From Candidatus Poribacteria bacterium (GTDB lineage: Bacteria > Poribacteria > WGA-4E > WGA-3G), in assembly GCA_003635185.1 (NCBI GenBank), contig PYJA01000113.1, forward strand, positions 1 through 64,000: a DNA stretch of 64,000 bases, written 5' to 3'. Both the position numbers and the translations under genes were made by a program. Below the pieces are notes generated by a model. That model was given only the letters and a program-made list of their open reading frames with translations, was not told the origin of the DNA and did not search any database. Positions 53,376 through 61,147 of the stretch are shown piece by piece (position 1 is the stretch's first letter; every line of letters begins with the position of its first letter).

Positions 53376-54164
53376 TTACCTTTTCAGATTTGCCCAAGTT
53401 GTTGCCAATTTTCCACGTGCGGAAACATCAAGTGTATCTTTCACAATTTTCTGGATGTCCGCTTCAGAAAGCGGATAGTTGGCTAACATCAGTTCGTCCA
53501 TGCGACCTTGAAAGAAACGTGGGCAGCAATCGTTACTCTCACCGCCAAACCGCAACGTCTTATTTGGTGAACTTCTGCCTACTCCTTTTTGTGGAATTAC
53601 CTTGCCATCATGCTCGCCATTAATATAGAAACGTGCCTCTGCTCCGTTCCACACAAGCGCAACATGCGACCATTCTTTCGCCTTCACCTTACCGAAAGAA
53701 ATATGGTAACCTTCGTTATCGGTGTCGTAGAAATAGTAAGCGAATTGTCCGGCCCCCGGTTCAATTTGCAGATAGTAGGTGTTTTTGTAGAAAATCGTGA
53801 ATTTGTTCTCCTGCCCACCTGCGGGAAGTTCGTCTGGGTAAATCCACGCCATCATCGTAATGGCTTTGTCTATATCCAGCTCATCGGAGTGTGGGACCTC
53901 TATATAATTCGGTTCTCCGACTTTGCCAGCCATTTGAACGGCTTTGCCGAGGATACCGTCAGTCCATTCAACATCACCGTTGAATTTTCCGACTAAGCCA
54001 GCAGTAGCGTCTTTCGTTTCTTTTCCGCTGCCTTCATCAAAATGCCAGACATATAACTTCTTGCCGAGTTGTTCCACGTTTCCTTTACCACCGGCAGCGA
54101 ACCCAACTTGGCAAAGGAGTAGACTCAGAAAGATACTTAGGATGATAAGTTTCAGAGTTTTCAT
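53376..54164 (-). CDS. Secreted LamG-domain protein
   Basis: Signal peptide; 'WHFDEGSGKETKDATAGLVGKFNGDVEWTDGILGKAVQMAG'; tail GKLATTWANLKR. Confidence 0.87.
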   Translation of the reverse strand: MKTLKLIILSIFLSLLLCQVGFAAGGKGNVEQLGKKLYVWHFDEGSGKETKDATAGLVGKFNGDVEWTDGILGKAVQMAGKVGEPNYIEVPHSDELDIDKAITMMAWIYPDELPAGGQENKFTIFYKNTYYLQIEPGAGQFAYYFYDTDNEGYHISFGKVKAKEWSHVALVWNGAEARFYINGEHDGKVIPQKGVGRSSPNKTLRFGGESNDCCPRFFQGRMDELMLANYPLSEADIQKIVKDTLDVSARGKLATTWANLKR

Positions 54165-54462: not shown

Positions 54463-55230
54463 TTATCTCTTTAGGTTTGCCCAGGTTGTGGCAAGTTTCC
54501 CACCAGGATCAACTGCAAAGAGCACACCGTTGTTCATGTCCTGATTGATTTCGTCTTCGGAAAGGGCGCGGTTGTATATGGCTACCTCGTCAACAAGACA
54601 TACTGTGCCAGAAAGTCCTGTCTGGGATTTGCCGATGCGGAAGACAACGTCGACGCTGTTTATCTTACCAGCGGGTGGTTTGTATGCCACATCTAACTTG
54701 CCGTCAATGTATTGGCGGATCATATCGCCATCGTAGGTAGAAGCGACGTGGTGCCATTCTTCCAGTACGGGTTTAATGGTCTGTATTCTTCGGGACCCTT
54801 GCCATCCACCAATATTCATCCATGTCTCAATTTGCGGCGCACCAGTAGGGTTTGAACTCCATTGGAGGCAATACCCGCCAGTGTTGTTTGCTGTTCTGCG
54901 CCCCATCAGATTAGAATCACCTTGGTTTTGTTCTGGGAAAAACCACGCTTGAATCGTGAGTTCATCCGTTATATCAAGTTCGGGAACAGCGTCAACCTCT
55001 ACAAATTGTTCTGTATTTGCCAAATGGATGCATCCGCCAATTTTGCCTTCTTTTGACCATGTTGCCCCATTCAGCGTAGCCTCAAGGTTATTTCCGCTTG
55101 CATCCTTCGCTTTGTCGCCCACACCTTCATCAAAGGGGAGGTACATCATGAGTGCCTTGTCATCTTTTAATGCCCAAGCATTGATACTGAGGCTTAGGAC
55201 AACGAGGAGTACAGTAGTAATAAGTTTCAT
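54463..55230 (-). CDS. Secreted LamG-domain protein
   Basis: 'MYLPFDEGVGDKAKDASGNNLEATLNGATWSKEGKIGGCIHLANTEQFVEV'; tail GKLATTWANLKR. Confidence 0.87.
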   Translation of the reverse strand: MKLITTVLLVVLSLSINAWALKDDKALMMYLPFDEGVGDKAKDASGNNLEATLNGATWSKEGKIGGCIHLANTEQFVEVDAVPELDITDELTIQAWFFPEQNQGDSNLMGRRTANNTGGYCLQWSSNPTGAPQIETWMNIGGWQGSRRIQTIKPVLEEWHHVASTYDGDMIRQYIDGKLDVAYKPPAGKINSVDVVFRIGKSQTGLSGTVCLVDEVAIYNRALSEDEINQDMNNGVLFAVDPGGKLATTWANLKR

Positions 55231-57328: not shown

Positions 57329-57953
57329 TGCAGGGTTATTTAGTTTTCGGTTTTTTGGACAAATTTTTAACACCTGCTATATACCCCGGGCCGGTGAATC
57401 AACGCCAAATGCGCGTTTGGCATTTGGCGGGTGCGGTTTCTAACCAATGCAGAGGACCACACGGGGAATGCCATACGCGCATTCATACCGTTGATTTGGC
57501 GTATTCTGCCGAATTTGGATCAAAAACTCTTATTAGTAAAACGGACAATTAATGGGACACTTTTGTACCGCAATCTGCCAGATTGCGGTTTGTGGTACAA
57601 ACTAAAAGTTTATGCTACCACTTCTATTGTCCATTATGTTCCATAATAGGTTTATCAAAATGCCCCAATAATTTCAAAGTTCACTAATAGTGACTTGCCT
57701 TGTCCGATGCGGTGCGGTTTCATGAAGATTAATTTATCAATTCGGTAATTTTCCATCCGCACAAGGCACGTATACCCCACCGCTGGCGAGGCGGGGAATG
57801 CCTAAATGGCATTCATACCGTTGATTTCTTCCTAACCTCGCCACATTACCCAATTTATTTTTTAATCTTCATCTAACCGCACCTACCGGCCTGGAGTCCT
57901 AACTTTGAGTCCAACTCAATAACGGAAAATTCTTAAAACTAAATAACCCTGCA
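57329..57953. mobile_element. Candidate non-autonomous element with ISKra4-like ends
   Basis: Perfect 19-bp inverted repeat tgcagggttatttagtttt (57329-57347) / aaaactaaataaccctgca (57935-57953); right end matches 588-616. Confidence 0.55.
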
Positions 57954-57961
57954 ATTTGGAC

Positions 57962-58112
57962 TTGACATTTTTCGCGTACTTTATTATACTATGTGATAGG
58001 ATGTTAGGAATGTGAAATTTTCTTGACATTTACCATGTATTAGTGTATACTATATGGTAAGATGTTGGAAATGTAAATTTTTCTTGACATTTATCATGTA
58101 TTAGTGTATAAT
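57962..58112 (+). promoter_or_regulatory. Array of three sigma70-like promoters, 61-bp period
   Basis: TTGACA at 57962, 58023, 58084; -10 TATACT 57985, TATACT 58046, TATAAT 58107; all spacers 17 bp. Confidence 0.7.
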
Positions 58113-58119
58113 ACATGGT

Positions 58120-58360
58120 AGACATTAGAAATTCATGGTAAATACGCGGATTTTTAATGTCGGGAAGGGGTGCTGAATGCACCGACAGTGTTATATGCCA
58201 AAGGACACCGTCGATGCTTAGCACTGCCGTATCGTATATTTAGGCGTTCTACGACAGCGCTGGTCTCTATTTTATCATGGAAAGTCCGTGTAAGTCAATT
58301 TAGGGACCAGCAACCCCTACAGGGTTTATTCCCACTTCGGACCTGCCCCTGTAGGCCTGT
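58120..58360 (+). ncRNA. Putative structured leader or small RNA downstream of the promoter array
   Basis: Hairpins: 58158-58163/58182-58187, 58259-58265/58305-58311 (GCTGGTC/GACCAGC), 58316-58324/58347-58355 (CCTACAGGG/CCCTGTAGG); no ORF. Confidence 0.4.
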
Positions 58361-58403
58361 CTAAACATTCAACTTGCTTCATGATATAGTAAAGGAGCAC
58401 AAG

Positions 58404-58625
58404 ATGAGACAGTACTACAAACCACTTCTCATATCAATTATAATTACGCTTATGATAATAAGCGGTTTGCTGCTGTTTGGCACTTATGATGCCACGCAGG
58501 CAGACACGTTTGACTGTGAACGGATAAGATTGGACTGCGTCCCTCGTGGCCCCAAGCCGATTTGTCCAAATATGGATTTAACCCCACGCTGCCCACTAAA
58601 TGCAGCAACAAAGAGGAGAAATTAA
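58404..58625 (+). CDS. Small secreted or membrane-anchored Cys-containing peptide
   Basis: aaaggagcacaag RBS; hydrophobic N-terminus 'LLISIIITLMIISGLLLFG' then 'CERIRLDCVPRGPKPICPNMDLTPRC'. Confidence 0.6.
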   Translation: MRQYYKPLLISIIITLMIISGLLLFGTYDATQADTFDCERIRLDCVPRGPKPICPNMDLTPRCPLNAATKRRN

Positions 58626-58626
58626 C

Positions 58627-59496
58627 ATGCAGAAAAAAATGTTATGGGGACTCGGTGTCCTCGCGCTACTGATCTGCACTGCATTTGTTTTTATGACAGT
58701 GCGCAATCGTGCTGAGATTCGGCAACTCAAAGAAGGGACTGCCGCAGCAGAAAAACCGTTAGAAGATAGCAACAAGCGAAAACCTGTCGCGAAAGCTGAC
58801 GAACAACCCCCTGCGGAACCGGGTTTCAAATGGGTGTGGCATAATGACCACTGGGACAAAGTGCCAATAGACGCACCAGATACGTGGCAAGGGGAACCAC
58901 ACACCGTAGATGTTTCAACGCCGGCCCCTGTCCCTGTGAGCGTTAAGACACACCTCCCCTTACTGGTCGAAATAGAAAATCCGATAATTAAGAAACAGAT
59001 CCTGTTAAGAACGATAAACGTTGACGGTATTGATATCGATTGGGCATCTCTTTCGCCAGATGAACTTGCCGAAACAATTGCAAAGTTGGAACGGCGCGAA
59101 ATCACAGAACCCGCTGGGTATTATTATAGACGCAGATCAGACAACTCACTACTTTTCGATGAAAGCGGATATCCCATTCTCCACAAAATAGGTGAACCCT
59201 TTATCTCTGTTGCCTGGACGATGGAATTCAGACCGCCACAGGAAGTATACGAGGAATACAGACAACTTGCCCGGCGACGTAATTTGCTGGATCCTTCGCC
59301 CGAACTTGACAACATCAGGGCACAAATGGAGGAGATGAGACGCACATACGCTGGTCCCCTCCCCGTCACCTTTGGGATTTCATGTGCAGGAAACGATATC
59401 GATGCGCAGGTAAAACGTGCTCATGAAACTATTGACCAATTGAAAGCAGGATTTTTTAGACAACTTGGAATAGAGTATTTATTAAGTAGATACTAA
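58627..59496 (+). CDS. Hypothetical membrane-anchored protein
   Basis: gaggagaaatt RBS, N-terminal TM 'MLWGLGVLALLICTAFVFM'; no recognised domain. Confidence 0.7.
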   Translation: MQKKMLWGLGVLALLICTAFVFMTVRNRAEIRQLKEGTAAAEKPLEDSNKRKPVAKADEQPPAEPGFKWVWHNDHWDKVPIDAPDTWQGEPHTVDVSTPAPVPVSVKTHLPLLVEIENPIIKKQILLRTINVDGIDIDWASLSPDELAETIAKLERREITEPAGYYYRRRSDNSLLFDESGYPILHKIGEPFISVAWTMEFRPPQEVYEEYRQLARRRNLLDPSPELDNIRAQMEEMRRTYAGPLPVTFGISCAGNDIDAQVKRAHETIDQLKAGFFRQLGIEYLLSRY

Positions 59497-59524: not shown

Positions 59525-61147
59525 ATGAAACGGATAAATCTATTGATGGAAAAACGCACACTTGTGATGAGTATGCTGTTCATACTTGTTTTCGGAACAC
59601 TGGTATCAGGAGAAATCAAATTCAGCTCCAAAACTGCAGCACCTCTGATAGGAGGTTCAAGCGGATCCGATTCGCCTTTGAAAAAGATAGATATCATCAC
59701 AGGTGATGAGCAGTGGCCGAATGGAAAAAAAGTGCATGTATTCATTGTTGCGGGTGCAAGGGGACTGGGCGTAGGTGAAGGAACGCTCGAACCGGTCACC
59801 ATACTTGGAAAAACGCACTCTGTCTGGGAAGATGGGCCTGATTATGTTGGCACCACAGACCCTAACGGCTCCTGGACATACAGCACAGCATCTTTAGTCG
59901 CAACTTTCATGACGAAGGAAATACCAGAAGACAGTGAACAGACAAGCTTTCCGTGGAGCGCGGAGGGCATTGTAAAACTGACCCCCTACGTTTGGCAGCA
60001 AAGCGTCTCTACTGGTGGTAGTGTCTCGTTGCCAATAACAATTTCGGGATCGTATTCTACGTCGGGAACCTGGACACTGAGTAGCGATCTTTCTACGAGA
60101 CGGGCGGCTGCGTCTGGCACATCGGGCACGCATACGGTGGATGTTAAATACAAATGTACTTCCTGTAATAAGGAAGGCGATACAAAAGAATCCATCGGTG
60201 GTGCTGCTGCACATGCCGTTGAAACTTGTTCACGCGAAGGGTGTGATGTTAAATACAGAAAATGTGATACTACCGCCAAGGCATTGCATTCGCTGTGTGA
60301 GGGATGTAATGAGTATCGATGTGAAGCAACAGACAAGACGCATGAAAAAGTAGAAAGATGTATTTCCCATTACTATGGCTCTACGCTCATATACGGTTGC
60401 GGGCAATCTTATTGGTTGTGTGCAAGCGATGCGTCAAACCATAAAAATTGGTCGTATTGTAGTCGCCCTGGCATTACGCATGCATATCGATCCTGCGCTG
60501 CGTCAATGCACACGATACAAGCAAGCTGTCCTGAAACGGATGGAAACGGGAATACTTGCACTGTGACGGGGTTTTACCCGTGTGAGTATCATACACACAA
60601 CTTCCCCACTGGCAGTGGCAGTAGCAGTGGCAATCAGAACAATGGCGGCGGTCAGAACAACAACGGCGGAGGTCAGAATAACAACAACGGCGGAGGTCAG
60701 AATAACAACGGCGGTGGCGGTGTGGGGCAAAACACCAACCAATACGTTGACCCAAGCAATGGCGGCATGCCCGTAGCCAATGGCGGCTGCACCACACCCC
60801 CGGCAAATGGTGGTTGCACCACAACGCCAACGCTCGTCAACTGCGATAAGCGTTATGACTATAGCTGCTACGTCAAAGTCCGTAATGCTTATGAACACCA
60901 AGTGACCTGTGCAGGTTGTAATAGTCAGTATTGGACGTGCAACAGTTCCGATGTGGCAAAACACGGACTACGTAGCTGCACGCGCCCGAGGCAACATGGA
61001 GGTTCTCGGTGTGACAACCAATGGCGGCGATGCGCCCATAACCCATATCCTATATATGGAGGCAATCAGATTCGTGATGCCGCACCGCCGTGTAGCACGC
61101 CGCCGAGTCACATTTACCTTGAGTGTTCAGGCCCTGTATTACCTTAA
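59525..61147 (+). CDS. Secreted Cys-rich protein with Asn/Gly low-complexity linker
   Basis: Signal peptide; many paired Cys; 'GNQNNGGGQNNNGGGQNNNNGGGQNNNGGGG' repeat. Confidence 0.75.
   Translation: MKRINLLMEKRTLVMSMLFILVFGTLVSGEIKFSSKTAAPLIGGSSGSDSPLKKIDIITGDEQWPNGKKVHVFIVAGARGLGVGEGTLEPVTILGKTHSVWEDGPDYVGTTDPNGSWTYSTASLVATFMTKEIPEDSEQTSFPWSAEGIVKLTPYVWQQSVSTGGSVSLPITISGSYSTSGTWTLSSDLSTRRAAASGTSGTHTVDVKYKCTSCNKEGDTKESIGGAAAHAVETCSREGCDVKYRKCDTTAKALHSLCEGCNEYRCEATDKTHEKVERCISHYYGSTLIYGCGQSYWLCASDASNHKNWSYCSRPGITHAYRSCAASMHTIQASCPETDGNGNTCTVTGFYPCEYHTHNFPTGSGSSSGNQNNGGGQNNNGGGQNNNNGGGQNNNGGGGVGQNTNQYVDPSNGGMPVANGGCTTPPANGGCTTTPTLVNCDKRYDYSCYVKVRNAYEHQVTCAGCNSQYWTCNSSDVAKHGLRSCTRPRQHGGSRCDNQWRRCAHNPYPIYGGNQIRDAAPPCSTPPSHIYLECSGPVLP

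Follow-up and report, generated by a model that had tools for sequence, protein, structure and literature searches.

Duplicated sigma70-type promoters precede a structured leader RNA, a probable translational switch, in Poribacteria

The question raised by this locus is what is served by three near-consensus sigma70 promoters that follow one another at intervals of exactly 61 bp. The locus lies in a 64,000-nucleotide stretch of DNA from a Candidatus Poribacteria bacterium (contig PYJA01000113.1, positions 1 to 64,000), which is referred to here as the window. The explanation that we favor, with a probability of roughly two in three, is that a constitutive promoter is joined to a new cis-acting, riboswitch-like translational leader, mostly of secreted-protein operons. 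The array that is visible in the sequence is the tip of a promoter-plus-leader unit.

The promoters reported by the first-pass annotation at 57962, 58023, and 58084 are present, with 17-bp spacers and distances of 61 and 61 bp. Tandem unit 1 (57961..58021, forward strand) contains TTGACA (57962-57967) and TATACT (57985-57990) followed by a trailer, and matches 11 of the 12 consensus positions. Tandem unit 2 (58022..58082, forward strand) has the same hexamers at 58023-58028 and 58046-58051 and the same 11/12 consensus score. The proximal promoter (58083..58112, forward strand), with TTGACA at 58084-58089 and TATAAT at 58107-58112, matches the consensus in 12/12 positions and is the conserved one. 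The repeated near-consensus hexamers in one orientation, with spacers within the range of 16-18 bp, are those of a tandem sigma70 promoter array. TRF and direct-repeat analysis concordantly give a period of 61, with 2.4 copies and 84% matches. The pairwise identities are 0.76 for units 1 and 2, 0.76 for units 2 and 3, and 0.65-0.66 for units 1 and 3. In 100 Markov shuffles (dinucleotide chain) of the 64-kb window, promoters with at least 11/12 matches occur on average 1.06 times per strand, compared to eight on the real forward strand, three of which form the array; an equally spaced promoter triple with a period of 30-200 bp occurs in 0/100 shuffles. The excess of promoters and the lack of shuffled triples indicate that the array is real and not due to chance. 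It is not a dispersed promoter repeat, because the whole array is unique in its own genome and the remaining matches are short promoter matches. A tRNA or known non-coding RNA at the array was searched for and none was found.

The proposed origin of the array by tandem duplication with a preserved promoter core agrees with the retention of 11-12 of the 12 consensus positions in all three units despite their divergence to 65-76% identity. The trailer GATGTTaGgAATGT.AAATTTT, described as common to the units, is found in units 1 and 2; its counterpart in unit 3 is AGACATTAGAAATTC, the 5' end of the leader RNA. Since the trailer of each unit is the counterpart of a transcript start, the duplicated block was a promoter together with its transcript start. 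A comparison of unit number across relatives, suggested by the first-pass annotation, shows that it differs between species: the sister species G004, the locus of which is 90% identical to that of the window, has two units, whereas the window and G001 have three. The distal unit of G004 is the ortholog of unit 1 of the window, with 90% identity, whereas unit 2 of the window is without a counterpart in G004. The variation among close species indicates that the units were duplicated, and changed in number, recently. Homologous loci were found in the genus of the window, and most other homologues have a single promoter. The claim that stacking itself is the functional core is unsupported, because at most homologous loci a single promoter occupies the same place, and it is the promoter together with the RNA that is conserved through divergent subfamilies.

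It is somewhat less likely than not that the array, apart from the RNA, represents ordinary promoter redundancy that arose by slipped duplication and is neutral or nearly so. The variable unit number in close species and the single promoter of most homologues fit this explanation, whereas the consensus hexamers retained in all three diverged units do not. Among 31 clusters of upstream sequences that have a proximal promoter, five contain an extra promoter 60-65 bp upstream of the proximal one (shuffles: mean 1.19, maximum 4). This recurrence of second promoters about 61 bp away in unrelated upstream regions also speaks against neutrality and suggests that stacking may carry some selected value. 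It is a modest sign that the spacing of about 61 bp itself may have some value.

Just upstream of the array, the stretches 57880-57952 and 57711-57883 contain a dispersed repeat, of which the genome has at least 16 copies and relatives have further ones, and, adjoining it, a 39-nt inverted repeat with a 95-nt loop. This is possibly a MITE-like element.

The first-pass annotation associated stacked promoters with stable RNAs or surface-protein genes, and the locus contains both: a structured RNA directly follows the last promoter, and genes for secreted or membrane-anchored proteins come next. The region 58119-58403 is conserved far beyond the intergenic expectation, with conserved blocks (through 65-78% identity) alternating with variable loops. 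The structured core of the leader RNA occupies 58119..58362 of the forward strand, as delimited by a covariance-model match, covariation, and a folding z-score of -5.39. The leader RNA is about 245-285 nt long and its predicted 5' end is at about 58118-58121. It folds into helices P1, P3, P4, P5, and P6, which display strong covariation. The 5' hairpin P1 (58121-58125 / 58157-58161) has both-side changes in 4/5 pairs, and P3 (58179-58190 / 58206-58217) contains conserved mismatches. The 3' strand of P4 (58220-58230 / 58251-58261) includes a GACAG box at 58253-58257. P5 (58259-58270 / 58300-58311) covaries. P6 (58316..58355) is best supported at 58318-58324 / 58347-58353, with both-side changes in 7/7 pairs. 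Helix P2 (GGUGC/GCACC) was dropped because its register is poorly conserved.

The covariation was evaluated in two alignments. Alignment A1 contains 18 copies aligned by sequence only, free of structure, and was used to test a structure of 47 pairs: 94.4% of cells are paired, 17 of the 47 pairs exhibit both-side changes (shuffles 9.2, 0/500; slid controls 2-7), and there are 53 double-changed cells compared to 15.1 in shuffles. Alignment A2 contains 106 copies and has both-side changes in 30/42 pairs (shuffles 20.3) and 417 double-changed cells (shuffles 124.4), counts that lean towards the structure because A2, unlike A1, was fitted to the covariance model. The RNA thus possesses the conserved, covarying structured domain that characterizes riboswitches. 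A search of the window against Rfam 15 gave no match at the gathering threshold, and none up to E=5 within 57800-58700. Matches of ten divergent loci to miRNA and snoRNA families of Rfam are sub-threshold, far below the gathering scores, and were rejected. A search for literature on riboswitches of Poribacteria or sponge symbionts found nothing relevant. The leader RNA is a new, previously undescribed family and a member of no known RNA family tested.

More than 120 further copies of the RNA were collected with the covariance model R1. At the stricter cut-off, 54 of the 59 genomes of the poribacterial family of the window contain 1 to 15 copies each, and 0/26 genomes of the phylum outside the family contain a match; the looser cut-off gives a maximum of 16 copies in one genome. 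Two genomes of the genus of the window are without a copy. The exact core pattern occurs in 75 stretches of GTDB r220 genomes, 74 of which belong to Candidatus (or uncultured) Poribacteria. The remaining one, from Anaerolineae, is without a covariance-model match and was rejected as due to chance. The loci are interrelated, and their counts are therefore not independent. One copy (L332, G085:C1:27511-27819, 210 bits) is located on the 71.6-kb IMG/VR contig IMGVR_UViG_3300009931_000001, which is a real tailed phage according to its PHROG matches to integrase, terminase, portal, and major head (capsid) genes. The genes after the phage copy resemble those of the window; over 88 residues, the identity to ORF2 is 44%. 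A phage origin of all copies is unsupported, with the terminase of this phage occurring in 1/58 family genomes. The P3 hairpin looks tandemly duplicated in the phage copy. Locus L114 (G015:C97) has three matches to the RNA model within 6 kb, two full and one partial; the full matches each precede ORFs, so that the whole cassette is locally repeated in tandem.

Promoter, RNA, and genes follow one another in a recurrent order. In 74 of about 122 copies, the first model position comes 4-6 nt after the end of the -10 element of a promoter-like site, and 31 copies have a perfect 12/12 promoter. P1 begins with a pair 2 nt beyond the first model position, which puts the predicted start site at the 5' end of the structured RNA. 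Judging from this register, transcription would start 6-8 nt after the last -10 element, at the 5' end of P1. Within 1.5 kb after the RNA, the longest ORF shares its strand in 116/119 copies. This arrangement, together with the promoter register, places the RNA in a same-strand 5' leader, the location of riboswitches.

In the window, the RNA is followed on the forward strand by ORF1 (58404..58625), which encodes 73 residues beginning with MRQYYK and has an N-terminal hydrophobic segment. The counterparts of ORF1 in other copies are short or degenerate. In L113, L114, L168, and L185, the start codon of ORF1 has become AGG while the nucleotides after it are still largely kept, which suggests a constraint at the level of RNA rather than coding. 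ORF2 (58627..59496, forward strand; 289 residues, N-terminally anchored) starts 1 nt past the stop codon of ORF1, and ORF3 (59525..61147, forward strand; 540 residues) is Cys-rich and has a signal peptide-like start. Neither ORF2 and ORF3 nor the small secreted ORFs have a Pfam or PHROG match. The commonest pattern after the RNA is an N-terminally anchored protein and then a larger secreted-looking protein; relatives of ORF2 belong to an anchored-protein cluster of 49, and the secreted-looking proteins form clusters of 41, 22, and 18. A strongly hydrophobic N-terminus is found in 93/120 first ORFs, compared to 31/77 control ORFs. Behind some copies there are DNA methyltransferase or restriction-modification genes, with N6_N4_Mtase found twice and N6_Mtase accompanied by HSDR_N and Methylase_S domains; one repeat-propeller protein behind the RNA contains PD40 repeats. 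The genes that the RNA would control are mostly exported-protein operons, and sometimes restriction-modification genes.

The leader RNA is probably an on/off switch for translation. The GACAG box is invariant and can pair either within P4 or with CUGUC at 58357-58361, forming the long-range helix P7, which excludes the lower part of P4. In P4, a retained A of the box faces a C in 81/98 rows, whereas GACAG and CUGUC are complementary in 99% of cells (93 aligned rows). The AACAG variants with a readable partner (L101, L164) have CUGUU in 2/2 cases. The retained C.A mismatch, the matched CUGUC, and the AACAG/CUGUU variants indicate that GACAG has two partners, in P4 and in P7. P7 hardly varies; its conservation and two compensated double changes support its predicted role in closing a three-way junction of P7, P5, and P6. 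The median energy difference between the P7 state and the long-P4 state is 3.7 kcal/mol in favor of P7.

The 3' strand of P6 and P7 (58351-58354 and 58357-58362) can alternatively form helix P9 with 58415-58418 and 58407-58412; the second of these is the AGACAG that directly follows the start codon. The potential partners in the window are GUAG and CUGUCU on one side and CUAC and AGACAG on the other, with a pairing energy of -14.2 kcal/mol. Where the RNA precedes a methylase, AUAGUCCU has a possible partner in AGGACUAU, a segment overlapping the start codon, and in another class UAGACUG has one in CAGUCUA, a short way ahead of a start codon. The complementarity of the segment to the start region has p<=0.05 relative to shuffled downstream sequence in 57/101 loci, and in 5/14 sequence classes the segment of the class is the best match to its own downstream region. 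The energy difference E(OFF)-E(ON) has a median of -0.3 kcal/mol in 50 copies and is -0.3 kcal/mol in the window, and such nearly equal energies are expected of a switch. About half of the subfamilies, with segments such as TCGGGACTGTC and TTGGGACTGTC, are without complementarity to the start region, which indicates that they use another platform or that the proposed mechanism does not hold in general. Mutually exclusive pairing that would expose or hide the start region is clear in five sequence classes and absent in others. The Shine-Dalgarno sequence AAGGAG of the window is covered by hairpin P8 (58375-58380 / 58394-58399), which in the subfamily of the window is 96% paired with G-U changes only, in a part of the alignment near the 3' end that is poor and limits tests of P8 and P9. 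P8 was rejected as a universal regulator since it is confined to this subfamily. Several loci (L187-L195, L202-L212, and similar) contain a hairpin of variable sequence between CUGUC and the Shine-Dalgarno sequence, for example CTCTATAC..GTATAGAG and GATCTG..CAGATC. It is possibly a different expression platform.

The proposed mechanism starts from locally duplicated vegetative (sigma70-type) promoters ahead of the structured cis-acting leader, where the upstream promoters would give rise to additional, longer transcripts of the operon. GACAG would pair in P4 or, distantly, with CUGUC, closing the P7-P5-P6 junction. The 3' strand of P6 and P7, once freed from the core, would pair around the start of the first ORF downstream. 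The folded core would thus leave the start free (ON), and the open core would block it (OFF). Since the freed strand can mask the start region, translation would be switched on and off by the RNA. Both the direction of the switch and the regulation of translation are suggested by the mutually exclusive, near-isoenergetic pairings in the five classes.

A static leader that only stabilizes mRNA or boosts the translation of highly expressed surface proteins, with the start-region pairings unused, is unlikely. The promoters look strong and constitutive, the fold is stable, P7 outweighs long P4 in energy, and many subfamilies are without start-region complementarity, as this explanation would have it. 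However, a static P4 leaves unexplained the C.A mismatch beside a perfect CUGUC match, and neither the class-specific complementarity to the start region nor the balance of the ON and OFF energies speaks for a leader with a single state.

Less probable still is that the three units mainly serve as operators for a repressor, with a dyad over the spacer and -10 element of each unit and the 61-bp spacing serving cooperative binding. A candidate operator, the dyad TATCATGTATTA-N5-TAATACATGGTA (58092-58120), covers the spacer and -10 element of the proximal promoter; its 12-nt arms (58092-58103/58109-58120) are 92% complementary, and it is kept with changed letters in G004 (ACATGTATTA..TAATACAT) and G001 (TCATATATTA..TAATATATGA). 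The recurrence of the spacing of about 61 bp is also compatible with operators. However, the dyad was seen by eye in the orthologous trio only, and is imperfect in units 1 and 2. A trans-acting or stand-alone non-coding RNA, with the neighboring genes merely carried along in a mobile cassette or phage moron, would account for the multiple copies, up to 16 per genome, the phage contig with similar genes, and the restriction-modification genes near some copies, but is improbable given the same-strand gene directly downstream in nearly all copies, the start-region pairing, and the lack of a recurrent intrinsic terminator in the sequence tails after the RNA copies.

A translational riboswitch is a 5' leader RNA composed of an aptamer and an anti-Shine-Dalgarno expression platform. 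The poribacterial leader resembles translational riboswitches in being a conserved, structured 5' element with many copies per genome ahead of different genes. The 3' strand of its core is common to a core helix and a start-region helix, and the two states are near-isoenergetic. Judging by its anatomy, it appears to work like a translational riboswitch in several subfamilies. It differs in matching no Rfam family in sequence or structure. The expression platform is recognizable in only part of the subfamilies, and the RNA belongs to one bacterial family. More speculatively, and as a tentative proposal, the RNA may be a new riboswitch class, confined to sponge-associated Poribacteria and one phage, that responds to a signal of symbiosis or cell state by switching, in concert, the translation of a dispersed regulon of surface-protein and some restriction-modification genes.

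The capsule cluster kps of E. coli has three tandem sigma70 promoters (PMC5738388). As in kps, the poribacterial vegetative promoters are stacked in one orientation ahead of a surface-related operon. Unlike in kps, the units are exactly 61 bp long, contain the start of the transcript, and were generated by duplication, and most poribacterial homologous loci have one promoter.

A phage moron is an accessory gene with its own promoter inserted in a phage genome. The phage copy L332, with its promoter, RNA, and secreted-type genes, is similar to a moron. However, nearly all RNA copies were found in bacterial genomes, and the copy of the window is flanked by PhyH genes and STT3/NADH dehydrogenase genes, with none of the scanned array-adjacent genes being of phage type.

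The large covarying leader RNA is missing from Rfam 15 and widespread in a family of uncultured sponge symbionts. Should it be a switch, it would offer a way into the regulation of the cell surface, and of some restriction-modification genes, in these symbionts. It also ties promoter, RNA, and gene family together, so that a covariance model can be used to find and annotate the copies.

Elsewhere in the window, two different LamG-type secreted proteins, encoded on the reverse strand at 53376-54164 and 54463-55230, end in a common tail, GKLATTWANLKR. The tail is possibly a C-terminal sorting or retention tag.
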